From NCBI RefSeq assembly GCF_018449525.1, contig NZ_JAAVUS010000014.1:62001-126000 (forward strand): a DNA stretch of 64,000 nt, read 5' to 3'. Of this stretch, positions 15,208 through 41,298 are shown one piece after another (the stretch's first letter is position 1; every line of letters starts with the position of its first letter). Under the pieces are notes generated by a model, which saw only the letters and a list, made by a program, of their open reading frames with translations, did not search any database and had not been told where the DNA came from. The position numbers were made by a program, and so were the translations under genes. This DNA comes from Bradyrhizobium sp. dw_78 (lineage in GTDB: Bacteria; Pseudomonadota; Alphaproteobacteria; Rhizobiales; Xanthobacteraceae).

Positions 15208-15327
15208 CGTCGCTGGCGGCTCCAGCCCTCAAAATTGGTTGAAGCAGCCGGTCGTTTGCGACCGGTGTCATGCGGGCTGTTTATACCTATATTCTTGGGC
15301 AACACCAAAAGCCTCAGGAGTGACGCC

Positions 15328-16831: not shown

Positions 16832-16836
16832 CCCCT
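16832..16836. repeat. Target-site duplication, left copy (CCCCT)
   Basis: The five bases CCCCT stand immediately outside the left inverted repeat and recur immediately outside the right one at 41294-41298. Five-base duplications are the rule for Tn7/Tn5053-like transposons. Confidence 0.85.
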
Positions 16837-16885
16837 TATGCCGACACGTTTAGACCGAGTCGATGACGGTCTAAGAGTGAGTCGG
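16837..16885. repeat. Left end of the transposon: terminal inverted repeat plus second binding-like motif
   Basis: The first 14 bases are identical to the complement of the right end. Two related motifs follow: GTTTAGACCGAGTCG at 16848-16862 and GTCTAAGAGTGAGTCGG at 16869-16885. The second is shared almost perfectly with the right end motif at 41221-41236. This arrangement is like the arrays of transposase sites in Tn7-family ends. Confidence 0.85.
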
Positions 16886-20448: not shown

Positions 20449-20728
20449 CAATACGGGCAAAGGCTGTCGTCACCACAAGAAGCCCGCTCATCGCGCTGCG
20501 TGCCGCCGCTATTGCCCGGCGGATCCTAGCATGCGGCATTCAAAAAGACGCTTCAACCGGCCACCGGGGGCATCCCCGTACAAGGGATAATTGCAGAAAA
20601 TCGGTTTTCATGCTGCAACCTTGGAAAACGGGGAGCCGGGGGGCGCAATGTACGGTAGCGTTCAGGGCGATAGCGAGGGATTAACCGGTTTTCTGGTAGG
20701 ATGGCGGGTCGGACCGGAGGATCGAGTA

Positions 20729-23101: not shown

Positions 23102-25023
23102 TGCATCAAGAAAACATCATCCTGGCGATCAAGCAAAGCAAGATTATGAAGATCGCGGTCATCGACGATGCGTTCGACATCCCGGGGGTGGACGACAAAA
23201 ACGCAGGTGATCTCCTGGACTGTCTCGGATCCGGAGCATTCGAGGCTATCAGGGTCGAAGCGCAGATCTCGGAAGCCGATCTCGGCGAAGCGATCTCCGC
23301 GCTTGAGACGACGCAGTACGGCGACCAAGGCCTTTCGCGCGTGCTGGAAAAACTCTATCGAAAATTCGGCGATTCCTTGGAAGAAAGATTCAATCCAGCC
23401 GGGATGTTCGGCGACCGGTTGCCCAATTTGACGCACCTTGCGCCGGTCATGCGGCTTCTTGAGACCTGCAATCCGAAGCCGGACGTCGTGCGGTTAAACT
23501 CGACCTTGGATGATTTGGACGAGGCCAAAGACGTCCAATTGATCTTCATCGACTTTTATCTTGACCCATCGGTTTCCGCGGAGAGCGCGCCAAAAGATAA
23601 GAACGCGGCGAAGAAGAACTCCCTCGTCAACGTAACCAAGCTCGTAAAATCGCTAGGCGAGAAGGCTCCTTCCGTCATACTTATGTCTTCCGCTCCGGAT
23701 GTACGGAAGCAGGCAGAAAAATTTCGCGAGGAAATCCTCTCGGAGAGCGGTGGAAAACAAAAAGGGTTGGTCTTCGCCAGCCGCTTCGGCTTCCTCGAAA
23801 AGACTCGCTTGAAGCTCCTCGAGGGAGGACTGGTCGGTATCGAGGACGACGCCGCCGACGATCTTTTGGACGTCTTCCAATCGTACCAGTTCGGCAGATC
23901 GATGCATACGGCTCTGGAAGCGTGGTTGGGCAGCGCGGAGAAGGCCGCAACCTCGATGCGCGAAGAGATCGAACGTCTGCATCTCAAGGACTTCGCTTAC
24001 CTGGTGCGGTTCAGGTTGCTCGAGGAAGGGCAGAGCCTCATCGAATATCTTGAGTGGTTTTTCGGTGAATGTCTGCTGGACGCGGTCGGAAAGGAGGTCG
24101 ACGAGGTGTCGGCCGCACAGGAAACGGTTAAATTCCTGAACAAGGAAGGCGCGGAGCAGATCGAAGGAGCCTACGACGGCGCCACCAAGACGGTCGCGGA
24201 CCTCTATCATCGGGTCCGGATCGAAAGCCCCAGAAAAGCGCGAAACGGCGGCTTCCGACTGGGAGACCTTTACACTGAGGGGAAGCGTACGATCCTGGCG
24301 ACTATGACCCCCGATTGCGACCTCATCGTCAGAAAGAACGGCAAGCCCGGCGCGGAGCGCCTACTCATGCTGACCGGTGAACTGAAGGACTTCGACGCCC
24401 CGGAGACCCCGGTCGCCGATTTCGTGATGATCGACGGTAAGCCGCGGAACATCAAATGGGACATGAAGAAGATTCTGACGAAGGAGTTCGAGGGATTCCC
24501 CGATAAGCAAGGTCTCAAGTACGTCGGGACGCTCAGGCCCCTCTACGCTCAGGAGCTCCAACGTAAGGTTCTCCACGATCTTGGTCGAGTCGGCATCTCG
24601 ACCGCACCTGCGATCGGAGTCAACGCGGCCATTTCCGTTCATGTGCAATCCAAGGCCGGTCCGAGAACAAAGATCGATCTCGCCGCGGACTGCACGATCA
24701 TGACGAGCCGAGGCGGAAACGCCAAGGCGACGGTATTGTTCAGGCGTGGGTTCGTGCCGGCTCTCATGAACGCACTGATCGTATTGGATCCCAGTGAGCT
24801 CGATCCGAAAGCGGCAGCAAACATCACGTCGCTAAAGGAGCAAGGCGCGAGGAAGAAGCTCGAGAAGATCTACAGAAACGGTGTGCCCTGCGAAGAAATG
24901 ATTGAATTCGGCATCTATCTCACGGCGAGCGACAGGCTGAAGAGCAAGGACGAGAAGACCTGGTGCTGGATTTTGATCGAGATGGGCGAAAAACTTGTCA
25001 CCGAGACCTTGGCCAGTGGCTGA
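23098..25023 (+). CDS. Divergent response-regulator-like protein with unknown C-terminal domain
   Basis: A 641-residue protein whose ATG overlaps the stop of the double-GHKL gene. The N-terminal part looks like a receiver: acidic pair Asp23-Asp24 in IAVIDDAFD, candidate phospho-acceptor Asp152 in LIFIDFYLDP, and Ser196/197 in VILMSSAPD. The gap between acidic pair and acceptor is about 128 residues instead of roughly 45, so a large insertion of about 80 residues interrupts the fold. The C-terminal 380 residues include a segment ILATMTPDCDLIV, of a kind seen in uncharacterised defence-associated proteins, and no DNA-binding helix-turn-helix. It is likely the effector or adaptor of the GHKL partner. 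It converges on the FtsK-like gene. Confidence 0.65.
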   Translation: MMHQENIILAIKQSKIMKIAVIDDAFDIPGVDDKNAGDLLDCLGSGAFEAIRVEAQISEADLGEAISALETTQYGDQGLSRVLEKLYRKFGDSLEERFNPAGMFGDRLPNLTHLAPVMRLLETCNPKPDVVRLNSTLDDLDEAKDVQLIFIDFYLDPSVSAESAPKDKNAAKKNSLVNVTKLVKSLGEKAPSVILMSSAPDVRKQAEKFREEILSESGGKQKGLVFASRFGFLEKTRLKLLEGGLVGIEDDAADDLLDVFQSYQFGRSMHTALEAWLGSAEKAATSMREEIERLHLKDFAYLVRFRLLEEGQSLIEYLEWFFGECLLDAVGKEVDEVSAAQETVKFLNKEGAEQIEGAYDGATKTVADLYHRVRIESPRKARNGGFRLGDLYTEGKRTILATMTPDCDLIVRKNGKPGAERLLMLTGELKDFDAPETPVADFVMIDGKPRNIKWDMKKILTKEFEGFPDKQGLKYVGTLRPLYAQELQRKVLHDLGRVGISTAPAIGVNAAISVHVQSKAGPRTKIDLAADCTIMTSRGGNAKATVLFRRGFVPALMNALIVLDPSELDPKAAANITSLKEQGARKKLEKIYRNGVPCEEMIEFGIYLTASDRLKSKDEKTWCWILIEMGEKLVTETLASG

Positions 25024-25069: not shown

Positions 25070-26536
25070 TCAGCCGGCCAATACGGTTTCGCGATCTTTT
25101 CTCGGGGTAGTGTTCTGCGTCAGTCCGACAATTGTTTCGATGAACTGCGAGTCAACGAAGGGCACCTGAGAGAAGCACAACCCGCGCTCGCCTTCCAGCT
25201 TGGCAAGCATGTGGCCGCGGCCAAGCAGACGTTCAGCCCCTTTTTCTCCCAACGCAATCTCGGACGTACCTTCGGAATCAACCCTCAGGATCAAGCGATT
25301 GCCCAGATTGGCCCGCAGCTGCATCGGCATGACATTGGCGTCCGGGCGTTGCGCCGCAAACACCAGATAGATGCCGGCAGCCCGGGCCTTGATTCCGAGC
25401 CGCTGCACGACCGTCGACACGGCCTCCCTGTATTCGTCGATCAGCATCCATTCGGCGAATTCGTCGTGGACCAGCCAGATCACGGGAAGGCGCTCGTTTT
25501 CCGGAGCCTTCGCGTTGTATTCGGTAATGTTCGCCACGCGCTTTTCCTTGAAGCGCATGTAGCGGCGGTCCATTTCGAGGACGAGTTCGGCAAGCCGCTG
25601 GGACGCGAGCTCCTGCTCGTCGATGATGCCTCCATCGAGGTGGGCCAGTCCCTCGAACGCGAAATAGTCGACGCCCTGCTTGGGATCTATCAGCACGATC
25701 CGGGCTTGCGCCGGAGTATTGGTGGCCGCGATCGCCAGCAGGATGTTCTGGACCAGGACCGATTTTCCGCTGCCAGTGCTTCCCGCTATCAAGGTGTGCG
25801 GCGCGTGGAGCCGTCCCGGAGACAGAAACAGGAGGCTGCCGTCGGCTTCCCTGACGCCAATGAGCAGGTCCTGATTTCCCCAGCCTACATCCTTCGGATT
25901 CCAGCGCGCCCACACCTGCCTTATATCGACGATCTGGTGGACTTCCCTTTCTACGGCGATCACCACGGCGCCGGGCTCGGGCCGGACGGAAATCACGTTG
26001 AGACCGAAGGTGGTGAGCAACTCTGAGCGCTTCTTGAGGACCTGGTCCACGGTCAGGTTCGCGCTTCCTGCGAACCTGAGGAGCGCGCTGTTCGGAGTCA
26101 TCGAGGAATTGAGGAGTTTCGCCTGCAGCTTCATTTGCTGAAGCGCTGCGCGTGCCGATGAGGACGTCTTCTGCAGCCACTGGTCCTCCGTCTCCGATGC
26201 GACGGAAACCACGGCTTCGGTCAGTAACGAACTGATCTGCGGATAGGCCCATCCTTCAGGCGCCGGTGGCCGCTCCCCTTGGAGATCCCCTTGGAGATGT
26301 CCTCGCAATACCTCGGAAATTTTGGAGGGGATGCAGGCCCGGATCCGAGATTGGGTCGAGGTGCCGGCCCGGGTTCGGGCGCGTTGCCGGACGGCCCCTG
26401 TTTCTTGGCCGGACGCTTGGGTGCTGCGGGCGCCGCGATTGGATCTCCGGAACCGGGTGCTCGCCAGGCCGGATCCGCGTCCAGATAGTCCGCTCCGGCG
26501 CTGATCCGGATTTCCCCGGGGCTCTGCTTGTGCCAA
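25070..26536 (-). CDS. FtsK/HerA-type DNA translocase (C-terminal part of a probable split gene)
   Basis: The sensible protein starts around 26275 and runs to 25070. Walker A GSTGSGKS lies at residues 252-259 of the full frame and Walker B VIWLVHDEFAEW at about 352-362, with VLIDPKQGVDYFAF and FAAQRPDANVMP between, as in FtsK/SpoIIIE. There is no membrane part and no gamma domain. The first about 85 codons (26536-26285) are arginine-rich read-through of the overlapping ATPase gene and are probably not used; GTG 26212 is one alternative start. Orderly sequence (PEGWAYPQISSLLTEA) appears just where the upstream ATPase frame loses sense, so one polypeptide may have been split by a frameshift. 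DNA translocation in restriction is the inferred role. Confidence 0.7.
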   Translation of the reverse strand: MAQAEPRGNPDQRRSGLSGRGSGLASTRFRRSNRGARSTQASGQETGAVRQRARTRAGTSTQSRIRACIPSKISEVLRGHLQGDLQGERPPAPEGWAYPQISSLLTEAVVSVASETEDQWLQKTSSSARAALQQMKLQAKLLNSSMTPNSALLRFAGSANLTVDQVLKKRSELLTTFGLNVISVRPEPGAVVIAVEREVHQIVDIRQVWARWNPKDVGWGNQDLLIGVREADGSLLFLSPGRLHAPHTLIAGSTGSGKSVLVQNILLAIAATNTPAQARIVLIDPKQGVDYFAFEGLAHLDGGIIDEQELASQRLAELVLEMDRRYMRFKEKRVANITEYNAKAPENERLPVIWLVHDEFAEWMLIDEYREAVSTVVQRLGIKARAAGIYLVFAAQRPDANVMPMQLRANLGNRLILRVDSEGTSEIALGEKGAERLLGRGHMLAKLEGERGLCFSQVPFVDSQFIETIVGLTQNTTPRKDRETVLAG

Positions 26537-28437
26537 TACGCGAGGAGGAGTTGCTTCAAAGCGCCTCGGCCGTAAATCTCCTGATAGGCATCGGAGACCG
26601 AGGGAACGGCGTAGGCCTCTGTCCGGTCCGCCCCCTCGACGGCCGTGGGGACGAAAACATGAGAGTACCCGCGCAGGTTAATTTCGCACCGTCCTTCGCG
26701 GATTGCCCTGCGCCAGGTTGCCAGATCGATTCCGCTGGCGGCTGGAAGACGGATTCCATCGAGCACGAGGTCCGCGATGCGCGCGAGCCAGGACTCCCGG
26801 TCCAGCCTATCCGGATTGCCGAAGATCGCTTCGCTGATCCGGTGCATCGTATCCCGGAGTTGCTTCTGCGATTCCTTCCGTTTGACCGGCAGACTGGCGT
26901 CATCGATGTATTTTGCCTCTGTGACGATGATCGTCAGCCGCAGCGTCCCGTCCGGGGACTCTTCTGGACTGAGGGTGAGGAGGTCCGCGAGCTGTTCTTC
27001 ACGTTGGCCCATCCATGCGGCGTAGTCGTCCAGGAAATACCATCCGACGGGCCGGCCTTCGCCGATTTCGTCCTTGACCAGGGCCCGGCTCAGGACCACG
27101 CCGATGAGCTCGCTGGCGCTGTGCCCCCGCTTGGCCGCCCGCAGCACGATATCTCCGGAGACGTCGTTGGCATCGCTTATCAGCCGTTCAGCCAGAAGCG
27201 CCAGGTCCGCGCCGCTTAGTTCGGTGTTCAGCGCCCTCAACCGGTGCAGGATCATGGATCGCAGCAGGCTGAGCGGCGCGCGGGACGAAATGATCACGTT
27301 CCGTCCCTGGGTGGCCGACTGCTTGTACCGGATGATGCGGACTTCCTGATTCAACAACTGGCGCCGGTCCAGCAGTTCATCGAAGTTCACGACCCAATTT
27401 CCGAGGTTGTGGGTCTCCTCGAAAATGCGGGCGGTTCGGCCGTCGCGGAAGTCGAGCTGCCTTACAGGCAAAAGCCTGCGATTCTCGTCGCCGTCCCAAT
27501 CGCCGCGGAAAAGCGAGGCTACCGCCGAGAGGTAGGACCACCCTTCGGCGCTTTGGACCGGACAGCACAGGTAGACAGACGATTTGAGGTCGTCGGCGGC
27601 CGCGGGACGGCGACGGGACCAGCGGGAGGGCAAAAGGGTCTTGATGTCCGCCGGCTTGGCATCCTCCTTGTGCCATTCGAGTTTGGCATGCCTGGAAATG
27701 ACATCCTGCGAAAACACGATGTCGTACGGACAGCCGTCATTCGGATCCGGGGGCGGCGCTTGGTCGGCGATGACCGAAATCCGCAGCCGCGCCATGAAGT
27801 CTTCCGTTGCTTCGCTTGCGCTGTAGGTGTCGGATGTCGTGGAAGCGCCCAGGATCGAGTGGTAGAGGTCGCGAAGGCGGGCTTCCAACATAGCGTGCAT
27901 CCGGACGGCATTCGGTTCGTCATCGACATGACGCCATGCTTCGATCAATTGGCCGTCGTTTGCAGTTAACAGGAACACCTCTGCTGGTGCTTCCGCGAAC
28001 ATGGATGCAGCCATCTTCCGGAGAAGTTCATATTTATCGCTGTACCGACCTGCGTCGTCAGTATCGGGAAGCGCCGTGAAATCCCTGATTACATGGACCG
28101 TTACCGCCCGGCCCCCAATAACGACCTCGTTCAGTTGAAAATAGATTTCGTTTGTGGACCATTCCTTGCTGGATCCGTTGAGCATTTCCCATACGCGTCC
28201 GCAAAGGTGACTTTTTCCGTCTCCCGCGGTGCCGGTGAGAACTACCGAACGAGGCTCGCCTCCATCGGCGCGAAAGGCCGAAAACAAGGCGTCTTCGAGC
28301 GGATGTTTGAATGATATCTGTCGGATTTTCAGTCTTCTGGCCGACCGGCTGATATGCTCATCGAACATGCTTTCGTTACGGGGAAGCGGCCCGTATTGAC
28401 GCAGGAACGTGATCCATTTTTCGCCGTCGGAGGCCAC
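26221..28437 (-). CDS. P-loop ATPase of the phosphorothioation locus (DptF-like in style)
   Basis: A 738-residue protein with Walker A GTAGDGKS at residues 69-76 and EVFLLTANDG as probable Walker B region. The GxxGDGKSH form and the following strand VTVHVIRDFTALPD recall the ATPases of Dnd/Ssp restriction modules (DptF and others), but I cannot prove homology. The C-terminus is proline/alanine rich (PAAPKRPAKK, PEPGPAPRPN) and then runs into FtsK-like sequence in the other frame after a 12-bp tandem duplication at 26275-26298. It follows sspD by 34 bp in the same operon, which places it where Ssp systems keep effectors. Confidence 0.65.
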   Translation of the reverse strand: MASDGEKWITFLRQYGPLPRNESMFDEHISRSARRLKIRQISFKHPLEDALFSAFRADGGEPRSVVLTGTAGDGKSHLCGRVWEMLNGSSKEWSTNEIYFQLNEVVIGGRAVTVHVIRDFTALPDTDDAGRYSDKYELLRKMAASMFAEAPAEVFLLTANDGQLIEAWRHVDDEPNAVRMHAMLEARLRDLYHSILGASTTSDTYSASEATEDFMARLRISVIADQAPPPDPNDGCPYDIVFSQDVISRHAKLEWHKEDAKPADIKTLLPSRWSRRRPAAADDLKSSVYLCCPVQSAEGWSYLSAVASLFRGDWDGDENRRLLPVRQLDFRDGRTARIFEETHNLGNWVVNFDELLDRRQLLNQEVRIIRYKQSATQGRNVIISSRAPLSLLRSMILHRLRALNTELSGADLALLAERLISDANDVSGDIVLRAAKRGHSASELIGVVLSRALVKDEIGEGRPVGWYFLDDYAAWMGQREEQLADLLTLSPEESPDGTLRLTIIVTEAKYIDDASLPVKRKESQKQLRDTMHRISEAIFGNPDRLDRESWLARIADLVLDGIRLPAASGIDLATWRRAIREGRCEINLRGYSHVFVPTAVEGADRTEAYAVPSVSDAYQEIYGRGALKQLLLAYWHKQSPGEIRISAGADYLDADPAWRAPGSGDPIAAPAAPKRPAKKQGPSGNAPEPGPAPRPNLGSGPASPPKFPRYCEDISKGISKGSGHRRLKDGPIRRSVRY
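26275..26298. repeat. 12-bp tandem duplication at the ATPase/FtsK frame junction
   Basis: Two perfect copies of CCCCTTGGAGAT stand head to tail. On the coding strand each carries a GGGG run, and the reading frame of sensible protein changes here from the ATPase to the FtsK-like frame. A single extra G in a run, or a -1 slip on GGGG, would join the two. Confidence 0.85.
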
Positions 28438-28471
28438 TACGGATACCTCAGGTTAATCGGACGGCTTCCGG

Positions 28472-29323
28472 TCACAGCGAGCATACTAGACACCCGTCTC
28501 TCAAATGACTGTCGTCCTCGGATTCGAGGCCACCGAGTGTCTCGACGAGTGCCAGGTTCTTGCGGCTTGCGCGCTTCTTTGCTTCGCTCGCTTCCCAGTT
28601 TCGCTTGATCTCCTCGACCCTCTCCGGACGTTCCAACTGCGCAAGCGACTCCGACCGCGACCAATAGAACTGTTCGCCGAAACCCAGACTTCGCTCTTCA
28701 TATTCCTTTGCCTTCTCGAAAAGATCGGGATGCTGTTCTTTCAAGCGCACCCATTCGATTTTCTGTTGATAGAAGCAGAAATAGCAGCCGGATCTGGACC
28801 GTCCCCAGGCCATGTAAGGAGGCAGGCCTAGACTCGATTCCTCGAGGATCCTGATGATGTCCGCGCGGACCAGGCCGTCCTCTTGGAAAGGATAGACGGC
28901 CTTGATATTCGGCTTTGTGCTGATGTATCCCGTACGATTTTCGTCCGCCCTCAGACCGACGTAGTTTATCACGGGCCCGTCCCCGATGTAGTTCTCGAAC
29001 GGCTTCAGCTTCAGCATCCTGGTGCACCACCGGCGGTGATTGGATGGAAGCATTCCGCCGTAAACCGACAGCCAATGATCGAACGTGTCGGTCGGCGACG
29101 TTTTGACTATCGGCTTGCCGAGGATGGCTTCGAGCCTCGCCAGGAAATCGTAGGTTTCCGGCAGTTCCTTGTCCGTGTCGTGGAAGATGTACTCCATTTC
29201 AGGAACGCGATCGCGCATGTAGATGGCAAGAGCCGCACTGTCTTTTCCTCCTGACAAACTCAGGACATGCCGCGGTGTCTGGCCGTTGAACTGTTCGTGT
29301 TCCAATTTTGCACTTTCCGTCAT
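28472..29323 (-). CDS. sspD: SspD: PAPS-reductase-like ATP pyrophosphatase of DNA phosphorothioation
   Basis: A 283-residue protein with the PP-loop SGGKDS at residues 24-29 in HVLSLSGGKDSAALAIYM. A cysteine set includes WCTRMLKLKP and SGCYFCFYQQK. This is the phosphoadenosine phosphosulfate reductase fold used by DndC and SspD to activate DNA for sulfur insertion; the size fits SspD rather than the larger DndC. Its ATG overlaps the sspC stop by 4 bp, so the two are coupled. It is expected to act with SspA-C to put single-strand phosphorothioates at a short sequence motif. Confidence 0.85.
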   Translation of the reverse strand: MTESAKLEHEQFNGQTPRHVLSLSGGKDSAALAIYMRDRVPEMEYIFHDTDKELPETYDFLARLEAILGKPIVKTSPTDTFDHWLSVYGGMLPSNHRRWCTRMLKLKPFENYIGDGPVINYVGLRADENRTGYISTKPNIKAVYPFQEDGLVRADIIRILEESSLGLPPYMAWGRSRSGCYFCFYQQKIEWVRLKEQHPDLFEKAKEYEERSLGFGEQFYWSRSESLAQLERPERVEEIKRNWEASEAKKRASRKNLALVETLGGLESEDDSHLRDGCLVCSL

Positions 29324-32300
29324 TGTGCGAGCCGCGAGTTCGCCGGCTGACCGACACTACCGCTGTCGACGTTCGTTTCCTGTGTTCCCCCAAGTTCCGC
29401 CCAAAGCATGCGCGCCAGCACATCGATGCGGGCCTGCTGATCCTTGGGAAGAAGATTATTGAAAACTCCGAACAGCTCGGTGGTCGCTGCGTCCTCTTTT
29501 AAACGGGGTTCGATTACCCGGACCAGGTCGACGCCGTCGCCTCTGGTGAGGTTGAGCCGAACCGCCGTCGGACTTGGCGCTTCGCCGCCGGCTCCGAACG
29601 CCGCGGCTTCGACTTTCTTGAAGAGCTCGGCAAGCGCGGAGATTTCCTCGCAAAACCGCGTCTCGTCGCCGGGGACCCACCGTGCCGGAGGCTTTGACAC
29701 CACGTAGCTCGCCAGGGCTTCGGCCCAGGTTTCATCCGACAGCCCCGGATCCCGCAGGCGGAGGGCAAATGTCCGCAGCCGCGGTTCGCGGGCCGCCAGG
29801 GTCACGCGCGCTGCGCGCGCTGCGAGCTTGGCCCGGTCGAACGATTCCCCCTCTTCTCCGATGGAAGTGGAGACACTGGCGACAATTCGTTCGAGCAGCG
29901 CGGGATAGGCGCCGCGCATCTCTCCGATAGCATCCTGAAGCGATGTCACAAAACCGGTTACAAGAGCCGCATTTGGCGCGTCGTTCGGATCGAACTTCCC
30001 CATCCCGCAGGCCTGAGGAAGATCGTGGAAGAGCAGGACGACCGGTTCGCGCGCCGACAGGAGTGCCTCGCGAACCGCCGTTGCAGGTCCGCTAAGCCCG
30101 GTGGACCGCCGAGTGGACTCGGGCAGTTGTGCGGCGAATTGGCAGAGGGGCCTTACGACATCTAGAAGGTCGGGCCTCCTCGTTGCATCGACGCCCTCAG
30201 CGAAGGTGGTTGCCAAATGATTGAAAACCTCGATCCTTATGCCCTCGACGCGGCAGTGCTGTATCTCAAAGGTCCCGGGAGACTTGGTCAACCTCAGGAA
30301 GTCCGAGGCACGCATGCGATGGAGAAACGTGCCGTGCTCGTATACCGCAAGTTCGTGTCCCCTCGTCTGAAGCAGTATCGCCAGCAGCAGAGGCGCAACC
30401 CCCGCTCTTACTCCGAACGGCCGGCCCTTTAGATCGGACAGAATCTCGGCAACTGACACCCGGCCGCCGTGAGCCCGCTCGATTTTGCCAAGTATTCCAT
30501 CAAGCGCAGGGCGCAGACGTAGAACATCTGTTTCCTTGGTCGGCTCCACGATCTTCAGGCCGTGTTCGTCCCGTACGTGAATTCCGCCCTTCTGAAGCAC
30601 CGAGAGATACATGGACTTTTCTGGCGGGGCTTTTTCGACGTCCATACCGAACAGAGGCTTGTCACCTGACGTGAAAAGACCTTCGATCAGCCGCATTCTA
30701 GCTGCGGCCGCCGCACTGCTGAGACTATTCCGGTTGAGGAGCTCGTTGGTTATGAGCGGTGATTGCGGATAGAGGCTGTCGCAAATTTCCGAAAGCAGGG
30801 CTGACGCTCCGCCTCGCGGCGGAAGGACGACCTTTTCGCCGGCGAAGAACCAATCTGTCTCAAAAACCGCGCGGCCCTGTGTACCGATCAGCTTGTTAGC
30901 CTTCGCGTTCAAGGCTCGATGAGAGGAAGCCAGTTGCCGCGTTACTTCGGCCAGCGCATACGCATCTCCGGAGAGTTCGGGAGTGTTTTCGGCGACCCAT
31001 CGCCAACGCTTCAGATCCTGCAATTCTACTGCCAGAGACCGCAAGGGTCGCGGGATCCCGAGCACCACGTCATTCCGCGCGGCAAACGAGGGGGACGTTG
31101 AGGCCTCGATCGCCGTGGTCCGATCGATCTCGCTGTCCGGTAGGGCGATAATGAGCAACCCGTCCGCATCGGTGCCCTTCACAGTCGCTTGAGACAAGGC
31201 GTCGACCTTCGCGTACCGAACCTCGAAGTAGCGCATCGTGCCGCTCTCGACATAATGACGACGCGCAAGCAAAGGTTCACGATCCAAGAACGGAAGAAGA
31301 CTGTCCGCGACGCTATCGAGGGATCCGAGAGCGCGGGATGCGGTTTGGAATGCCCCTTCCAGATTGACGCTCGAATGGGGCCAAAGGCGATAGGCTCCGG
31401 TCGGGCCTCGACGGAATACCAGGCCGGCGCCGATCAATTCCGTTAAGGCCGCAGCGACTTCCCGCTCCTTGTTCGGAACGAACGCAGCGACGAGCGCCTC
31501 CTGGGTTGCGGCGAGGTCGTCAGCGTCGAGAAGGTTCAAGACGCCGATAGCCTTCAGCACCCGCTCTGCGAGCGGACTTAAGTCATGGGTTCCGTCGATC
31601 GTCTCGAGGATGCGCAGCCATTGATTTCGATAGCTCGCTCCCGCAAGTTTGTGACCGAATACCGCACGCACATAGTCGTAGAATTCCGACAAGTCGTACC
31701 AAGTACCGGGGTCAATGGCCCGCGACGAAAACGATTGAACGCTGAATGGTTCGGTAGAAAGGAGGAAGCCGAACAACGAACGTTCATGCTGCCCAAAACG
31801 CGCGAAAAACCGGACGACCGCCGGTAGGACGGTGGGATGAAGGGGGTAGGTCCGTCCGGAGCCGAACAGCTCGAGATTGCGTTTCGCTGAACCGATCCAT
31901 CCGACCGAAGCTGCAGCGTTAGCTGCCCGCCTTGCGGCCGAGCAAACTGCGTCCGGCACTCGGCGCAAATCGATGTTCAAGGCGCCCGAGACAAGCGCGG
32001 CCGTATGAGCGAGGGGTTGGTCAAAAACGATTTCGTCGAAGCGGCCTGCCACCTTTTCCCATTCATGGCGGACGGCAGAGGGAAGGCTTTCCGCGTAAGC
32101 ATGGAAACCCTGATGAAGCAATCCGAGCAGAACGAAAGCGCGGTCGCCGCTGCGGGCCGCTAACTCGGCCAGGCGCTGCAGGACGTAAACGTCCTCGAAC
32201 TCGGGTCGCTGGGCTGCATGTTCGAGGTTCTTTCCCAATTCGTCGATGACCAGAAGGACGCCCTGACCGTTATCTCCCGCATGCTGACGGATCTTTCCAA

Positions 32301-32796
32301 TGAGCTTCTCCAACTCCTTGAGATCGCCCGAGCGTTCAACTTCTTCGGCAAAGCTCGCGATATCGAGCACGGCCTGCGGAATTCGACCGGGCTGGGCGCG
32401 GCGCTTACGAAGAGCTTCAGAAATACCGCGAGCAATAGCGGGGATGATTCCTTCCCGGGAACCGGTGACCAAGACTGGAAACATGGGAGGGATGCGCTTG
32501 GGCCAGTCGATTGCGCGGGCAATCTTCGAAATGTCCGGCGGCGAGCGATCGAAAAGGAGATGGGCAAGAACTAGCGCGAACGACGACTTGCCCACACCGT
32601 AGTCGCCGGTGATGCGCCATGCCCTGCGGCCGGACCCCGCGGCCAACCCTTCAGCAATGCGCAAGAAGGCATCCGCCATTGGCGGCGTGACGATATAATT
32701 TTTGCATGCAGCCACGTCGTGAAAGTCGCGCTCGATCTGAACGGACCGGAGGAATCTGGTCGGAACGTCGAACAAGTCGCCGATCGTCTTATGCAT
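29320..32796 (-). CDS. sspC: SspC: large ATPase of DNA phosphorothioation
   Basis: A 1158-residue protein starting at ATG 32796 (MHKTIGDLFDVPTRFLRSVQ), overlapping the sspB stop by 8 bp; a longer frame to 32928 covers sspB and is rejected. Walker A GDYGVGKSS is at 64-72 and Walker B LLVIDELGKN with Asp185-Glu186. The layout resembles the BrxC/PglY-type large AAA ATPases, and its place between the DUF4007 gene and the PP-loop gene is that of SspC. In the described system SspC supplies ATPase activity for modification. The remaining 850 residues have no motif I can name. Confidence 0.8.
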   Translation of the reverse strand: MHKTIGDLFDVPTRFLRSVQIERDFHDVAACKNYIVTPPMADAFLRIAEGLAAGSGRRAWRITGDYGVGKSSFALVLAHLLFDRSPPDISKIARAIDWPKRIPPMFPVLVTGSREGIIPAIARGISEALRKRRAQPGRIPQAVLDIASFAEEVERSGDLKELEKLIGKIRQHAGDNGQGVLLVIDELGKNLEHAAQRPEFEDVYVLQRLAELAARSGDRAFVLLGLLHQGFHAYAESLPSAVRHEWEKVAGRFDEIVFDQPLAHTAALVSGALNIDLRRVPDAVCSAARRAANAAASVGWIGSAKRNLELFGSGRTYPLHPTVLPAVVRFFARFGQHERSLFGFLLSTEPFSVQSFSSRAIDPGTWYDLSEFYDYVRAVFGHKLAGASYRNQWLRILETIDGTHDLSPLAERVLKAIGVLNLLDADDLAATQEALVAAFVPNKEREVAAALTELIGAGLVFRRGPTGAYRLWPHSSVNLEGAFQTASRALGSLDSVADSLLPFLDREPLLARRHYVESGTMRYFEVRYAKVDALSQATVKGTDADGLLIIALPDSEIDRTTAIEASTSPSFAARNDVVLGIPRPLRSLAVELQDLKRWRWVAENTPELSGDAYALAEVTRQLASSHRALNAKANKLIGTQGRAVFETDWFFAGEKVVLPPRGGASALLSEICDSLYPQSPLITNELLNRNSLSSAAAAARMRLIEGLFTSGDKPLFGMDVEKAPPEKSMYLSVLQKGGIHVRDEHGLKIVEPTKETDVLRLRPALDGILGKIERAHGGRVSVAEILSDLKGRPFGVRAGVAPLLLAILLQTRGHELAVYEHGTFLHRMRASDFLRLTKSPGTFEIQHCRVEGIRIEVFNHLATTFAEGVDATRRPDLLDVVRPLCQFAAQLPESTRRSTGLSGPATAVREALLSAREPVVLLFHDLPQACGMGKFDPNDAPNAALVTGFVTSLQDAIGEMRGAYPALLERIVASVSTSIGEEGESFDRAKLAARAARVTLAAREPRLRTFALRLRDPGLSDETWAEALASYVVSKPPARWVPGDETRFCEEISALAELFKKVEAAAFGAGGEAPSPTAVRLNLTRGDGVDLVRVIEPRLKEDAATTELFGVFNNLLPKDQQARIDVLARMLWAELGGTQETNVDSGSVGQPANSRLAQ

Positions 32797-33742
32797 TTTC
32801 GGAGACCTCCGAGTAAATATCCGCCAATGTGGGAGCACGAGCTCCCCTCTGCCGGGACAGCAGTCCTTGCACGGCTGATGACTGATAACTGAAGGATGCC
32901 GCACGCCCGGGGCCTCCGACGCGCTCAAGTCTCACGCGCACGTCGTCTTCGGGCAATTTGAAGACCTGCCCTGGCGAGCACGGCGCCAAGGCAATCTCCC
33001 GCAAGGTCAGCGATTTTTCGCCAGGTCTGAAGGTTTCCCAAAACTCTGAAATGCAATACGCAAAGAGAGCATCGGAGACTTCCGGCTTGGCCTCGCGCCT
33101 GAACGAATACACGCTTTCCCAGCGCTCGCCCTCGACCTTCCTCTCGCCGACCGGCTGCAGTAGCGCGAGTTCAACCAAGGGACCGTCGAGGGAATCCTCA
33201 ATGCCCACATTGGCTGATTTCGTCGGGCGATAAGTGTGCAGAAACACGTCGAGGTGCTGCGAGAGGGTGATTGTCGAGTGCGAGTGGCCCATCTTGGCGG
33301 ATTCGCGCGCGAATGCGCTCAGCGCTTCCGAACGCGTGAGTTCGGGGTAAGGCCAATGATTCAAAAGAAACCGCCATGCAAAAAGGCCGCCCTTTCGCCG
33401 TGACGAGAGTTTCCAGTGGAGCAGCCACAAAGTTCGTATGTCTTCGAGATATGGGTCAAACCCCTTCGAGCCGAAAATCGCGTGTGCAAAATCGGTCAGG
33501 TGGAGCTCCCGATTTTCCGGCTCCGCTAATCCGGTTGCCTCGACCCAGAAACGGAGCGATCGAACCATGTTTTTACCGATTCCCAGGTCAACCATGGCGG
33601 CCTGCTCGTCGACGAACGCGGACGGATCGGCCTTGATTGCGCGATAGGCCTTGGGGAGCCAGGCGTAGCGGCACGCGAAAGTCTCGTGTCCGGAAAACCG
33701 CAACACCTCGTTTGGGCCGGAGACCATGGCTCCTTCGATCAT
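32789..33742 (-). CDS. sspB: SspB: DUF4007 protein, DNA nickase of phosphorothioation
   Basis: A 317-residue DUF4007 member. FSGHETFACRYAWLPKAY (about residues 16-33), GIGKNMVRSLRFWVEA and LTDFAHAIFGSKGFDPYLED are family motifs. In the SspABCD system this protein nicks DNA so that sulfur can be placed on one strand. The ATG overlaps the sspA stop (ATGA) and its own end overlaps sspC, so the four genes form a tight operon. A second Met at residue 6 is an alternative start. Confidence 0.85.
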   Translation of the reverse strand: MIEGAMVSGPNEVLRFSGHETFACRYAWLPKAYRAIKADPSAFVDEQAAMVDLGIGKNMVRSLRFWVEATGLAEPENRELHLTDFAHAIFGSKGFDPYLEDIRTLWLLHWKLSSRRKGGLFAWRFLLNHWPYPELTRSEALSAFARESAKMGHSHSTITLSQHLDVFLHTYRPTKSANVGIEDSLDGPLVELALLQPVGERKVEGERWESVYSFRREAKPEVSDALFAYCISEFWETFRPGEKSLTLREIALAPCSPGQVFKLPEDDVRVRLERVGGPGRAASFSYQSSAVQGLLSRQRGARAPTLADIYSEVSENA

Positions 33743-34953
33743 GTTGAAACTCCCTGCAGCGACCCCGTGACTTCGCGAACAGCCGCGACGATTTCGTCGG
33801 CAGCGCGATCAACCTCGTCGCGGGTCGTATACTTTCCAAGTCCTATTCTGATTGCGCCGTCCTGCATTTCCTCGGACAGCCCCATCGCCTTAAGCACATG
33901 GGAGGGTGTCTGGGCTCCAGACGAGCAGGCGGCACCGGTGGAAATCGCTACCTTGTTGCGCAGCCTCGCGATCACGGCATCATTTGGAATGCCAGGCAGA
34001 GCGATATGAAGGTTATGAGGCAATCTGTGCCTGCGGTTCCCGTTCACGACTATCCCAGGAATCTCGCGGATCAGGTTGGCTTCCAGTCGATCACGACATT
34101 CTGTGATTCGTTTGTCGTCTGCCGGCCCTTCGAGCTGCATTAGCCGGCAGGCCTCTCCAAAACCAACGATCCCAGGAACGTTCAAAGTGCCGATGTGGCC
34201 CACAACGTTTTCCGTCAATTCAGAGTGGACGACGGCCTTGCTGACCACCAAAGCGCCGACCCCTTTTGGGCCGTAGATCTTATGGGAACTGAACGCGACA
34301 TAGTCCAAATCCCAATCCTGTGTCCTCAAATCGACGCGGCCTGCTGCTTGGGTGCCATCCACCAGCACTTTCGCGCCGGCTTGATGAGCGTCGCGCGCGA
34401 TCTGCTCTATCGGATAGATCGTTCCAACCTCATTGTTCGCCGCCATCACGCATGCAAGGTCGACGCCCTCATTCAACGCTGCCCGTAGGCTTTCCGGACG
34501 AAGGTTCGCCTCTTCGTCAACTTCTACCCAAACCACTTGGGCGAGCCCGGCGCGGACTGCAATCCGGAGCGCGTCGAGGACCGCCTGGTGCTCCACCCTC
34601 GTCGCTGCGACGCGCAACATTCGGTTACGGCGCGTGGCTATGGCGTGACCAACTGCGAAGCGAATGGATTCGGTCGATCCCGAGGTAAACCTAACTCCCT
34701 CGGTCTCGGAGCCAATGAGGTCCGCGACTTTTTCTGTCGCCCTGTCCACCAATTCGAGCGCAGCCTCACCGTGCGTATGGTCAACGCTGTTAGCGTTGCC
34801 AAACACGTTGACCATCGCGTTGACGACGACATCTGCGACCCTTGGGTCAACCGGAGTCGTAGCATGATGGTCCAGATAAATTGGGTGATGCGGCACGGGC
34901 AGAATGCCTGGGACCGGGCGCCGTACCCGTTCGGCTAGACTATGACTGGTCAT
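33739..34953 (-). CDS. sspA: SspA: cysteine desulfurase of DNA phosphorothioation
   Basis: A 404-residue PLP-dependent NifS/IscS-type desulfurase. YLDHHATTPVDPRV marks the N-terminus, Lys225 in FSSHKIYGPKG is the PLP lysine, and Cys343 in STGAACSSG is the catalytic persulfide cysteine. The core housekeeping desulfurase would lie in the isc/suf locus, so this island copy is best explained as SspA, which supplies sulfur to SspD. It is the first gene of the leftward operon. The promoter should lie in 34954-35080. Confidence 0.87.
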   Translation of the reverse strand: MTSHSLAERVRRPVPGILPVPHHPIYLDHHATTPVDPRVADVVVNAMVNVFGNANSVDHTHGEAALELVDRATEKVADLIGSETEGVRFTSGSTESIRFAVGHAIATRRNRMLRVAATRVEHQAVLDALRIAVRAGLAQVVWVEVDEEANLRPESLRAALNEGVDLACVMAANNEVGTIYPIEQIARDAHQAGAKVLVDGTQAAGRVDLRTQDWDLDYVAFSSHKIYGPKGVGALVVSKAVVHSELTENVVGHIGTLNVPGIVGFGEACRLMQLEGPADDKRITECRDRLEANLIREIPGIVVNGNRRHRLPHNLHIALPGIPNDAVIARLRNKVAISTGAACSSGAQTPSHVLKAMGLSEEMQDGAIRIGLGKYTTRDEVDRAADEIVAAVREVTGSLQGVST

Positions 34954-35080
34954 TGATCGAACTCTTCTGCGCCGCGGGTGACATCCGGAATGCCGGATAG
35001 AGACACGACACCAAGCAAATCGGAAGTGAATTGCCGCCGGTCAGCGCCAAAAGCAGGTACGCGATACAATCTCAGGTTAC

Positions 35081-35302
35081 TCACGTCTTGCCCGCCTTCG
35101 CTTTCCACCGCTCCAGCCACTGGGCGGCAGCTTCTTCCAGGATCTCGGACGCCGATTTTCCCTCCTGGATCGCTGCATGCTTCAGGCCCTTGATGGTCTC
35201 GGCTTCCAGGGTCGCGAGGAATTTGCGCAAGTCGATGCCTTCGAGGGCCTTGCGCCCTGGCTTGCGACCTTTGCGGTGGGGCCTCTCCTGATCGTTTTCC
35301 AT
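35081..35302 (-). CDS. Small ribbon-helix-helix-like protein
   Basis: A 73-residue basic protein starting at ATG 35302 (MENDQERPHRKGRKPGRKA). The second half, with LRKFLATLEAETIKGLKHAA and SASEILEEAAAQWLERW, has the strand-helix-helix pattern of CopG/RHH regulators. It is upstream of sspA on the same strand and could repress the sspA promoter, or control the divergent tni genes. An upstream extension to 35392 is unlikely. No partner toxin is adjacent. Confidence 0.55.
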   Translation of the reverse strand: MENDQERPHRKGRKPGRKALEGIDLRKFLATLEAETIKGLKHAAIQEGKSASEILEEAAAQWLERWKAKAGKT

Positions 35303-35516
35303 CAGTCCAAGCCCGCCCTGATTGCCAGATCGTCCATCAAAAGCGTCCCATGCGTTGTATCCACGAACAAGCGCAATCGGGCGAGCCGGCAAGCGGTTTC
35401 CCCGACATTCGTAAGCGAAGGAGGCCTCTCGCGAGGCTTAGATCGCTGAATCTACGTCAGATTCGTCCTTCGAGCCAGACCAGATATAATTATGAAATAG
35501 ATATTCAGATATATTT

Positions 35517-36554
35517 ATGTTGACAATCGACCTAATGTTCTGCTTTTGTTCTCGAGTTGGTAGCGTGACGGGAGTGGAACATGGCGGTACGCCGGGAAAG
35601 TCGGACATGGCGGGACAGCCTGGTCGCGCGCCACGCCGACATCTTCCAGATCACGGAAAACGGACAGACTTAACCTATACCGAATTGTCCGCCATGCCCA
35701 TCATCGGGCCAAGCGGGTCGACGAAGACCACTTCCATGGTCGCAGTCGCGGAAAAGCTCAAGAAAAAGCATCCGGGAAAGACACCCATTCTCGTCGTCAA
35801 GTTGCGGTCGTCCACGACAAAGCTGAAGCATCTCCATGTGCAGATTCTCGAGGCTTTCAACGACCCGCAGGCCGATACCGTCCGTAATCAGATTGTCTCT
35901 CACTCGGACAACGTGAGCGCCGATGCAATCCGCAACGTCGCGCGGGCCGCCGGCACCTACGTCGTGGTGCTCGACGAATCCCACAGCGTCATCGGCGTGC
36001 GCGAGAAATGGGCGAGGGCGCAGGCCTTCGCGCCGCACATCAAGAGTCTGGTCAACGACGGGCTGTTCGCGGTCATCGTGATGGGCACCGAGGATGCGAA
36101 TCTTTTATTCGAGACTTTGCCGGAGTTGAACAACCGGAAATTCGATTCCATCTCGCTCAACCCCATCGATCTGAGCAACCCAGAGGACTTCAGCTACTTC
36201 TACAAGCTCATCGGCCGGATCGACCACAAGCTGGTTGCGCTCGACATCCTGGACGAGCCCATCGGACTCGTCGACGACCTGAAGAGCCGCGGGCTGCTCT
36301 ACGACATGTCCGACGGAGTTGTAGGCGTCATTTGCCGCATCCTGATAATCGCCCTGCGCATGGTGCAGCGGAAGGGTCGCCGCACGATCGACTTCGACAA
36401 CGACATCAAGCAGGCGTTCTGGGCATGGAAAGCCGAACAGAAGGACGAGGACGGAAATTCGATAAAGATCTACGATCCGTTCGTGGAGAAGATCCGACCC
36501 ACGACGACGGACACCATCGCAGCAATGTCCAAAAAGATCGGGATATCGTCGTGA
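35517..36554 (+). CDS. tniB: TnsC/TniB-type transposition ATPase, probably frame-shifted near its start
   Basis: A 345-residue frame with Walker A GPSGSTKTT and Walker B TYVVVLDESHS, the AAA+ regulator of Tn7/Tn5053-like transposition that links the target protein to the transposase. The 5' end is odd. The best start, ATG 35581, has GGAG six bases ahead, but its frame (MAVRRESRTWRDSLVARHAD) stops at TAA 35671; the ATPase frame is reached by a -1 shift just before. The frame that is open from 35517 has poor codon use in this stretch. So the gene is either damaged by a one-base change or uses frameshifting. It overlaps tniQ by GTGA. Confidence 0.72.
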   Translation: MLTIDLMFCFCSRVGSVTGVEHGGTPGKSDMAGQPGRAPRRHLPDHGKRTDLTYTELSAMPIIGPSGSTKTTSMVAVAEKLKKKHPGKTPILVVKLRSSTTKLKHLHVQILEAFNDPQADTVRNQIVSHSDNVSADAIRNVARAAGTYVVVLDESHSVIGVREKWARAQAFAPHIKSLVNDGLFAVIVMGTEDANLLFETLPELNNRKFDSISLNPIDLSNPEDFSYFYKLIGRIDHKLVALDILDEPIGLVDDLKSRGLLYDMSDGVVGVICRILIIALRMVQRKGRRTIDFDNDIKQAFWAWKAEQKDEDGNSIKIYDPFVEKIRPTTTDTIAAMSKKIGISS

Positions 36555-38968
36555 CGACCGATTTTTCCAAGGTCCGCCCCTTTATCGCCAACATGCCAAC
36601 GCCGCACCTGGGTGAGAGCCTTATCGGCTACATCGACCGCGCGGCGCAGCGAACGGTCGTCCGGAATCTTCCGACCATCATGCGCCTTGCCGGAGCGGCA
36701 AAGACAAGGCATACGTCGTTTGTCCGTCCCTTCAATATCGATCCCCAAGAGGCGAGGGGACTCGCCAAGCTGTTCTCATTGAGCCCGCAGGAAATTCTTT
36801 CACGCCTGCATCCTTGGGGAGAATTCGATCACGCCAAAGAATCCACAATCGAGTTCTTCGGAACGAAAATCCGCGGACAGTATTTCGAATCCAGGGCGCG
36901 CCGGGTATCACCGCGCGCACTGGGGATCTCCCCCCATCACCGGGCGATCTGGGACCTCAGACCTTTCGCGTTCGATCCAGCAACGCGCGAGCAGTTGCTG
37001 GACCGGTGCCCCGTTTGCCAGAAGCGATTGGGCTGGGTCCGCTTGGCAGGGCCCACCAATTGCGAGCATTGTCTCGACGAGCAAGGTAAACCAACCGATC
37101 TTCGCGCCTTTACCCAGCCGATCGTAGAACTCGATGACGAAGAGGCGATAGATTTCGCAATCGCGATGGTCCACCCGGACCGCGCGAAGCGTGATCTGGC
37201 ACACAAACTCGTTCCGGACGAACTCCGGTCCCTGACCGCGTCAGATCTATTCGAAACGATTATCTCGATCGCCAGCATTCTTCGGCCTAGTTTCTTTCCC
37301 CAGTACAAAGCCATCGGGCGGCCGACGACCTTGCGGGGGTTCGAGGAACTGACGCCGGATCTGCTGGTGATGGGTGCACGCGCGATAATCGGAGGCGAGG
37401 ACGGTTTCGCGGGGGTCGCCGACAAGATGCGAACAACGATGGACCGTCGTCCGGCCGCCCTCGGCATCTTCAAAGAACTTGGTCCTCTCGCCGCGATAGC
37501 GGTCGACAGGAAAATCGCTCCCGCGATGCAGGCGTACTTTCGCAAAGCGATCGCACGCGACTTCGCCCGCACGACCGACCTGGGCATGGTTAGAAAACGG
37601 TCGGCCGCGATCAACTACACCTCGGAAACATGGCGCAACTTGAACGAACTCCACCGGGAATTCGGCGTCCCGGAAGCATACGTCTCACGTCTAGCGCAGA
37701 GCGGTCTTGTCGAAACGCGACGCGCCGCCGAAACTATTACTGCTCCGATCATGATCAATAGGGCGGACTTCATCCCGCTTGCCGAGCTGTACAAGGACTC
37801 GGTCGGTGAGCGCTCTGCTTCAGCTCAACTGAGGGTTTCGTATCGAGCGCTTGCCGAACTCGCGCGACGAAAAGTCATCGAACGCATCGAGGGCCCGGCA
37901 GCCGCGATGCTTGGAGACAATCCGCGCTACAGGTTGTCGACCATCTCCGCGGTCCTGATCGCCGTCGACCGTCGCGCCGACCGGCCAGTGCCGCCACAAA
38001 AGGGACCGTTTTTGAATGCCGCGGCGGCGGTCTTCGCCCCGCATATTCCGTGGCCGACGATCATCGAGTTGATCCTCTCGGGGGACATCCTCATCCATCG
38101 CCGACGGAAGAACGGGAAGAATTGGCAGGGAGCTGTAGCGATAGACGATCCGGAGAGTTTCCGCCGGGTCGTTGCCGCCGCCGCTGACGGACGCGCGGAC
38201 GAAGGCGCAATGGGGAATTGGCTAAGCACGCATGAAGCCGCCCTGCTGCTCGGCTGCAGGAAGGATACGGTTGCGGACCTGCAGAAGGAGGGAATACTGC
38301 ACTCGCAGCGCGGAAGCACCTGTTTCTACAAGCGTACGGAGCTCGAGAAATTTCGCCGCAAGTACGTTTTCGGACGCGAAATGCTCGCCCGATCGGTCTT
38401 CGAAGTCCACCATCAACTCTATCGCTGGCTCCGCTCCGAAGGTGTCGTCCCGGAAAAAATGAAGCTGCGGGGGATCGATCCGATATTCGACCGAGCCGAG
38501 TTCGAGCGGGCCCTGAACTCGCTGCCGGCAGCCCCGCCGAAAACCACAAAAAGAGAGGGCAGAGGCCTTTTCACCATCGAGGAGAAGCAGCGGATGGTCG
38601 ACGCGGTTCAACTCGGTTTTCCCGTCAATTGGGTAAGCGATCGGATGGGCGGAAAACCCAAATCTATCGCCAAATGGGTAGAGGAGTTCGAAAGCACCGG
38701 AAAGATATCTTCGGCATGGAAACTCGAGGAGCACCAAGATACATTGAAAAGGATCATAGCCAGAGATCCTAAGCAGACACTCGTATCGGTGCGGAGGCGA
38801 CTGGAAGACGACGGCGTTGTCAAGGTTAGCAAGTCCGCCCTCGATGCGTATCTGAAGCAAATCGGATATCGGCGAAACCACCGAGGCGAGCTTCGCCTTG
38901 ATCGAGCAAACGGCTCCGCCGCTTCATCCGCGCCTACCGGATCGTCTGAAGAGCTTTCTTCCGGCTGA
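36551..38968 (+). CDS. tniQ: TniQ/TnsD-like target-selection protein with extra HTH domains
   Basis: An 805-residue protein starting at GTG 36551, which overlaps the tniB stop. The N-terminal TniQ domain has PHLGESLIGYIDRAA and a zinc finger of Cys153, Cys156, Cys171 and Cys174 (CPVC...CEHC). Near residue 558 an excisionase/MerR-like helix-turn-helix (LSTHEAALLLGCRKDTV) follows, and residues about 674-775 look like the double helix-turn-helix that opens IS630-type transposases (FTIEEKQRMVDAVQLGF, then SVRRRLEDDG). It is longer than usual TniQ, near TnsD size or more. It should bind a chromosomal target and recruit TniB; the insertion just behind gabD is the probable target. Confidence 0.8.
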   Translation: MTTDFSKVRPFIANMPTPHLGESLIGYIDRAAQRTVVRNLPTIMRLAGAAKTRHTSFVRPFNIDPQEARGLAKLFSLSPQEILSRLHPWGEFDHAKESTIEFFGTKIRGQYFESRARRVSPRALGISPHHRAIWDLRPFAFDPATREQLLDRCPVCQKRLGWVRLAGPTNCEHCLDEQGKPTDLRAFTQPIVELDDEEAIDFAIAMVHPDRAKRDLAHKLVPDELRSLTASDLFETIISIASILRPSFFPQYKAIGRPTTLRGFEELTPDLLVMGARAIIGGEDGFAGVADKMRTTMDRRPAALGIFKELGPLAAIAVDRKIAPAMQAYFRKAIARDFARTTDLGMVRKRSAAINYTSETWRNLNELHREFGVPEAYVSRLAQSGLVETRRAAETITAPIMINRADFIPLAELYKDSVGERSASAQLRVSYRALAELARRKVIERIEGPAAAMLGDNPRYRLSTISAVLIAVDRRADRPVPPQKGPFLNAAAAVFAPHIPWPTIIELILSGDILIHRRRKNGKNWQGAVAIDDPESFRRVVAAAADGRADEGAMGNWLSTHEAALLLGCRKDTVADLQKEGILHSQRGSTCFYKRTELEKFRRKYVFGREMLARSVFEVHHQLYRWLRSEGVVPEKMKLRGIDPIFDRAEFERALNSLPAAPPKTTKREGRGLFTIEEKQRMVDAVQLGFPVNWVSDRMGGKPKSIAKWVEEFESTGKISSAWKLEEHQDTLKRIIARDPKQTLVSVRRRLEDDGVVKVSKSALDAYLKQIGYRRNHRGELRLDRANGSAASSAPTGSSEELSSG

Positions 38969-41164: not shown

Positions 41165-41293
41165 GGTCGACCGTTCTTATTGTCAAAAACGACCAAATGA
41201 CGCCGTCTTAAAGTAAGAATCCGACTCACTCTTAGCCGACGCCGCCGTGACTTTTCAATGAGTTAGCCGCCTCGCTCTTAACGTGTCGGCATA
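41165..41293. repeat. Right end of the transposon: terminal inverted repeat and further binding-like motifs
   Basis: The terminal 14 bases, AACGTGTCGGCATA, are the exact complement of the left end. Read inwards from the end, related motifs are at 41267-41282, 41221-41236 (CCGACTCACTCTTAGC), 41198-41213 and more weakly 41165-41182, so three or four sites against two clear ones on the left. Such asymmetry is typical of Tn7-like elements. Confidence 0.82.
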
Positions 41294-41298
41294 CCCCT
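41294..41298. repeat. Target-site duplication, right copy (CCCCT)
   Basis: Same five bases as 16832-16836, immediately outside the right inverted repeat. Confidence 0.85.

Follow-up and report, generated by a model that had tools for sequence, protein, structure and literature searches.

A TniQ protein with an IS630-like C-terminal tail, a probable TnsD-like target selector of a transposon behind gabD in Bradyrhizobium

Introduction

In Tn7, the target selector TnsD binds the last 36 bp of glmS (excerpt of PMC2918618). Faure et al. (2023) described TnsD-like proteins whose long and diverse C-terminal regions hold several helix-turn-helix domains, and in Tn6022 an inactivated tyrosine recombinase, TnsF, has been co-opted as the selector of comM (excerpts of PMC10293859). 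The C-terminal domains named for large TniQ/TnsD proteins are AcrR, CI, HA, HTH, and XRE (legend to Fig. 4 of PMC11406308). Here, we analyzed a 64,000-bp stretch of Bradyrhizobium sp. dw_78 (contig NZ_JAAVUS010000014.1, positions 62,001 to 126,000; "the window" below, numbered from its first nucleotide), which carries a 24,457-bp element (16837-41293) that starts 12 bp past the stop codon of a gabD-like gene. We propose that the TniQ protein of this element is probably a TnsD-like target selector of a TniA-TniB-TniQ (Tn7/Tn5053-type) transposon, and that its C-terminal series of helix-turn-helix units would bind the gabD 3' end.

The locus shares with TnsD and attTn7 an N-terminal zinc finger and adaptor-binding region, a conserved gene end that is bound (as predicted here), insertion at a fixed distance, and a 5-bp target duplication (excerpts of PMC2918618 and PMC10293859). 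It differs from Tn7 in the site, which is glmS in Tn7 and gabD (or dksA or tRNA-Met) here, in the finger, which is C4 in the window TniQ and CCCH in TnsD, and in the distance from the stop codon, which is 12 bp here and about 20 bp in Tn7. The tail is IS630/paired-like, unlike that of Tn7 TnsD. The modular build of a TniQ part with C-terminal helix-turn-helix units is shared with the large TniQ/TnsD proteins, but a transposase-type paired head is not among the domains named in the excerpts of PMC10293859 and PMC11406308. TnsF of Tn6022 likewise reuses the DNA-binding part of another mobile element for target selection; however, TnsF descends from a recombinase and is a protein of its own, whereas the IS630-type head is fused to TniQ here (excerpt of PMC10293859). 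The N-terminal domain of IS630-family transposases also has two helix-turn-helix units (profile positions 6-112 of 299), but these enzymes carry a DDE domain, which the window TniQ, with its head fused behind TniQ, does not. A literature search found no paper pairing TniQ or Tn7-like elements with gabD; a search on dksA as an attachment site gave only off-topic titles among the matches listed, and a search pairing TniQ with IS630 gave only off-topic titles. Thus, gabD and dksA as sites, neither found in print by these searches, and the transposase-type head add to the known TnsD/TniQ selectors.

Results and Discussion

TniQ carries an IS630-like head behind a series of helix-turn-helix units

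The tniQ gene runs on the forward strand from a GTG start at 36551 to a stop codon ending at 38968 and encodes 805 amino acids, the same frame as in an earlier reading made from the letters alone (the sequence-only reading). The TniQ domain (residues 15-137; 36593-36961) matched PF06527 with an E value of 2.9e-6, above the cut-off. Behind it lies the zinc finger that the sequence-only reading had placed at Cys153, Cys156, Cys171, and Cys174 (37007-37072), and these four cysteines were invariant in 12 of 12 aligned TniQs and in all seven TniQs of the clade described below. Residues 361-553 (37631-38209) are predicted to form winged-helix-like units in series, based on the secondary structure of the full-length model (mean predicted local distance difference test [pLDDT] score, 66.8). 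They are followed by a MerR/Xis-type helix-turn-helix (residues 557-604; 38219-38362), which that reading had also recognized; it matched PF12728 (HTH_17) with an E value of 1.7e-6, above the cut-off, and residues 557-583 matched the NCBIfam excisionase domain (E 3.3e-4, below the curated cut-off).

The last module is an IS630/paired-type bipartite helix-turn-helix (residues 676-783; 38576-38899; all domains are on the forward strand). The NCBIfam IS630 transposase profile (NF033545) matched residues 683-775 at profile positions 6-112 of 299 (E 2.8e-4, below the curated cut-off), and HTH_Tnp_1 of Pfam matched residues 671-732 (E 0.0015, below the cut-off). At E values up to 0.1, the IS630 profile was matched by six of the seven clade members, with a best E value of 2.7e-9 and in its N-terminal part only. 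A Pfam scan of the 12 aligned TniQs at an E value of 0.05 found HTH_17 in eight and HTH_23, HTH_28, and HTH_29 in six each. No DDE catalytic domain was found in TniQ, as the IS630 match stops at profile position 112 of 299 and about 20 residues are left behind the second unit. The tail also retrieved an IS630-like transposase of two open reading frames (L009, named by eye).

The IS630 match is weak in the window TniQ alone; it is the profile, the fold, and the recurrence in the clade that together carry it, and on these three the sequence-only description of a head of about 100 residues without the DDE part holds. With a TniQ domain, a zinc finger, and a putative C-terminal DNA-binding region, the protein appears to have the parts of a TnsD/TniQ selector.

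Structure models of TniQ

The sequence-only reading had proposed structure prediction as a check on the C-terminal region. We modeled residues 655-795 with AlphaFold from four sequences (mean pLDDT, 67.2) and obtained, at moderate confidence, two paired-domain-like three-helix units with a short wing. In a Foldseek search with this model, ranks 1 to 4 were paired domains (Pax6, E 0.0012; Pax5, E 0.0013; 1pdn, E 0.025; Pax8, E 0.03), followed by chains of the IstA transposase, by unrelated calmodulin-type rows from rank 7, and by Mos1 at rank 9; no match had an E value below 0.001. Since the root mean square deviation across both units was 11-24 Å in the paired-domain rows, the units match individually and their mutual placement is unsure. 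VIA-align gave Pax5 a Z score of 8.1 over 60 residues of the first unit, and the arginine repressor, cullin, and other winged helices scored 7-8 on the second. Because these scores are spread over varied winged helices, they indicate the common helix-turn-helix arrangement and nothing further.

Foldseek matches of the full-length model were interpreted domain by domain only. TniQ chains ranked best (E 0.003-0.05); Pax5 was matched with a probability of 0.98 and an E value of 0.25, and BldC rows fell on the MerR/Xis-type unit with probabilities of 0.99-1.0 but E values of 1.0-1.7. A profile of the clade compared with solved structures matched TniQ (E 3e-4), the PAI subdomain of Sleeping Beauty (E 0.003), and IS5376 and PAX6 (E about 0.3).

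The element lies at a fixed distance behind gabD

The gabD-like aldehyde dehydrogenase gene (15235-16824, forward strand; PF00171, E 4e-169) ends in the presumed attachment site. The flanks contain the left copy (16832-16836) and the right copy (41294-41298) of a target-site duplication, CCCCT. Between them, the left terminal inverted repeat at the element start (16837-16862, forward strand) and the right one at the element end (41268-41293, reverse strand) form an inverted pair (I4) of 26 nucleotides with 88% identity, and a second copy of the left-end sub-repeat lies at about 16870-16885. Inverted ends with repeated sub-sites and a 5-bp target duplication are thus present, as expected of a Tn7/Tn5053-type transposon. 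The tniB gene (35607-36554, forward strand; PF05621, E 2e-10) encodes a predicted AAA+ protein that would be the TniB/TnsC adaptor of such a transposon. Its N terminus is missing: we picked the start codon at 35607 within the open reading frame 35517-36554, and the product aligned with residues 68-351 of a 352-residue relative, whose residues 1-67 had no counterpart.

We then looked for the left-end pattern (up to three mismatches) in 265 Bradyrhizobium genomes. It was found in 16 of them, while the reversed pattern, used as a chance control, had no match in any of the 265. The flank of the left end was gabD in four genomes (the window, G408, G343, and G372), a 3' fragment of gabD in one (G466), dksA in eight (G417, G421, G428, G377, G486, G322, G532, and G552), and other sequence in three (G396, G548, and G370). 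The distance from the stop codon to the element was 12 bp in all five gabD cases, the window and four other genomes, and 35, 36, 36, 37, 37, 38, 38, and 40 bp in the eight dksA cases. These distances point to fixed insertion behind a conserved gene end, as with TnsD/TniQ selectors. The gabD fragment of G466 (L120:1419-1500) comprises 68 bp with 87% identity just behind an open reading frame (377-1414), with the element end at the usual 12 bp, and may be an attachment site that was trimmed naturally.

All 117 congeners sampled first had a gabD match, and among the matches listed the best mostly ended a few bases from the stop codon; those of G343 and G372 extended into the element end. In 14 gabD loci without an element end, which were partly picked as best matches and count two genomes twice, conservation was 95% over the last 60 bp of gabD and 48% over the 12 bp that follow, close to what chance would give for 14 rows. 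Because the gabD 3' end is conserved and the insertion point is not, the site is most likely read inside gabD rather than at the insertion point, as in attTn7.

Inverted ends with matching 5-bp duplications were also found in G377 (50,837 bp), G552 (8,673 bp), and G417 (11,259 bp), and in G444 and G423, both behind tRNA-Met. The gabD elements of G343 and G408 (at L035:1882-5944 and L130:100-4162) are 4,063 bp each, with inverted ends and the same ATCTC duplication, and probably represent one ancestral insertion. Neither had a match to TniA, TniB, or TniQ, and their movement probably depended on help in trans. No matching right end was found for G486, G528, G469, G402, G532, G466, G372, G421, G428, G322, G548, and the dksA element of G532, several of these contigs having been read in part; nor was one found for G355, and the search for those of G396 and G370 was without success.

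The IS630-like tail recurs at several targets

With the window TniQ (P0001) as the query, 38 of the 265 genomes had a match at an E value of 0.001, many of them short. Seven TniQs, including that of the window, align through the tail and have the same architecture, although the one in G469 is without about the first 80 residues. Their sites are gabD (the window), dksA (G377 and G486), and tRNA-Met 14 bp away (G444 and G355), and those of G528 and G469 are unassigned. The window grouped with the dksA pair both in the tree of the core (residues 96-355; support, 93/92) and in that of the C-terminal part (support, 100/99), the latter with a long-branch warning that included the window. In G313, two TniQ matches with equal scores (C1:3384993 and C1:5275561) suggested a recent second copy.

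In one genus of another family, two TniQs from two genomes adjoin the gyrB 3' end and match IS630: one of 970 amino acids (L015:7569-7676; E 4.9e-11) and one of 868 amino acids (L016:7682-7896; E 1.2e-4). No element end could be defined near gyrB at either locus. By eye, the L015 protein has several copies of the IS630-like unit. Six more distant TniQs (G538, G402, G423, G532, G222, and L103 of Lichenifustis) had no IS630 match at an E value of 0.05; the sites of G402 and G423 are beside tRNA-Met and that of G532 beside tRNA-His. Altogether, the NCBIfam scan found the IS630-like tail on 8 of 15 TniQs, near gabD, dksA, tRNA-Met, and gyrB. No relative was found among viral contigs, plasmids gave five partial matches with less than 40% identity, and a scan of public genomes gave 14 loci, with three near-full-length clade members and none beyond G377, G469, and G528.

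TniQ with this tail fits a reused selector chassis and is not peculiar to gabD. The sequence-only reading had seen a transposase-type DNA-binding head on TniQ and suggested that it might read the end of gabD. Such a head is present, in an element at a fixed 12 bp behind gabD. The reading had also considered such a selector unusual, a view that it would have given up if the C-terminal domains occurred in all TniQ/TnsD proteins of the clade at many targets. As regards gabD, this is largely what we found, with the same tail at dksA and tRNA-Met and an IS630-like tail on two gyrB-side TniQs.

Divergence of the modules between targets

The gabD TniQ was 46-50% identical to the two dksA TniQs in the TniQ domain, 54-55% around the finger, and 36-48% in most of the middle part. 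The least conserved stretches were HTH_17 (28-34%) and the two IS630-like units (24-33%). Between the two dksA TniQs, the values were 67% for the TniQ domain, 72% for the finger, 63-75% for the middle part, 70% for HTH_17, and 57-66% for the IS630-like units. The tail of a broken TniQ in a third dksA element (G421) was 41% identical to both dksA TniQs and 30% identical to the gabD TniQ. The frame-broken TniQ of G322 had no tail match and was about equally similar to the gabD and dksA TniQs; the dksA site bearing a left end is 87 kb away in that genome. The left ends of the window, G377, and G486 were equal at 43-45 of 49 positions, and the right ends of the window and G377 at 30 of 49.

Such divergence is suggestive, and the reader of gabD may be the IS630-like tail or another of the helix-turn-helix units. 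A more tentative idea, which we hold to be possible and somewhat doubtful, is that the IS630/paired tail and the MerR-type unit form an exchangeable or fast-evolving reading head, with which a chassis with nearly unchanged left ends could have switched between the gabD and dksA gene ends and a tRNA gene, a natural retargeting by protein alone. This set of relatives, in which the left ends are similar and the TniQs share one architecture but the attachment genes differ, makes the open question of how TniQ/TnsD proteins gain new targets directly testable by domain swaps.

TniA and mobility

In the 6.04-Mb genome, no TniA was found with two TniA protein queries, one giving a best E value of 0.2 and the other, in a search that had no positive control of its own, no match. 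PF00665 had a single hit in the genome, a 182-residue frame on another contig. As a control, PF00665 detected TniA in G377 and G486 but missed that of G444, so the weight lies on the protein-query searches. Of 11 other Bradyrhizobium stretches carrying a TniQ relative, seven had TniA (G355, G377, G402, G444, G486, G528, and G532), and five of the six other clade members had a TniA match. Since it was not found in the remaining four stretches (G322, G423, G469, and G538), the window copy is not alone in lacking TniA. The window element is probably immobile alone and would move only with help in trans, because it has no TniA, its TniB has lost the N terminus, and no TniA was found in the genome.

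The segment 34953-35607 of the window holds a ribbon-helix-helix gene on the opposite strand (35081-35392), in the place taken by tniA and the start of tniB in five relatives. A stretch similar to 34953-35607 is also present in the G377 element.

Proposed mechanism and alternative explanations

The protein has the anatomy described, the element has defined borders, a duplication, and a recurrent fixed spacing, and the same architecture stands at three kinds of site. From this we infer that the N-terminal TniQ domain and zinc finger would dock to TniB, while the C-terminal helix-turn-helix series, ending in a noncatalytic IS630/paired-type bipartite head, would bind the conserved gabD 3' end. 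TniB would then recruit TniA, which would insert the element 12 bp behind the stop codon. In the relatives, the same chassis with diverged C-terminal modules would act at dksA or tRNA-Met.

Several points weigh against this proposal. The IS630-like part is among the faster parts even within one target, at 57-66% in the dksA pair, and the window lies outside that pair in the tree; thus, a diverged tail is not necessarily a sign of target choice. The four other genomes with a gabD element had no TniQ match and no tni gene in the stretches read. Since only one gabD element was found with TniQ, the link between TniQ and gabD rests on one element, and with a single gabD TniQ the divergence per domain is a hint that allows no test of target-linked change. 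The full-length model is of moderate confidence (pLDDT, 66.8; predicted template modeling score, 0.39). Searches of the window (tblastn with the TniAs of relatives) found no TniA, so that function in this strain is doubtful. In addition, TnsD of Tn7 has binding determinants along its whole length (excerpt of PMC2918618).

This last point also favors a different division of labor, in which the zinc finger and the middle winged-helix units (residues 361-553) read the target and the IS630-like tail is a non-specific clamp or stabilizer. Distant TniQs of 648-681 amino acids (L079, L085, and L014) have no IS630 match, and one of them, that of G532, is in a stretch that also holds TniA and has an element-like end beside tRNA-His. 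However, the tail is aligned in seven of seven clade members and an IS630 match recurs on the two gyrB-side TniQs, which suggests a specific use, and we consider the clamp unlikely, though a serious competitor. In IS630/Tc1 elements, such heads bind the terminal repeats, and the tail could instead bind the transposon's own ends and help to pair donor and target. The repeated sub-sites in the element ends fit this role, and with right ends that differ between the window and G377, ends and tail could diverge together. But the left ends of the window, G377, and G486 are nearly alike while the tails of G377 and G486 are 24-33% identical to that of the window, which makes end binding by the tail less likely, and we consider it quite improbable. 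The absence of TniA and the truncation of TniB would also be expected if tniQ were a relic, another TniQ having placed the element at gabD and the window TniQ having drifted since TniA was lost. Yet the 805-codon frame is unbroken, with the finger and recognizable domains in place, so TniA was lost recently or TniQ has been kept, and we regard a relic as improbable. The TnsD-like selector remains our preferred reading of the window TniQ.

Cargo of the element

Between the left end and tniB, PADLOC profiles identified a block on the reverse strand (25070-34953) with SspABCD-type phosphorothioation genes for phage defense and an SspF/SspH-like gene. The genes sspA (33739-34953), sspB (32789-33742), sspC (29320-32928), and sspD (28472-29323) are all present together, as in SspABCD systems. 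The SspF/SspH-like gene lies in two frames (26221-28437 and 25070-26536), also on the reverse strand. The SspH profile is split over these overlapping open reading frames (profile positions 832-1332, then 1369-1763), and the upstream frame opens with an SspF-like stretch, which may reflect a frameshift, a sequencing error, or an SspF-SspH fusion.

On the forward strand, 20591-25023 encodes an 836-residue protein with GHKL ATPase-like matches in two places, overlapping a 641-residue protein without a Pfam match, and is possibly a further cargo module.

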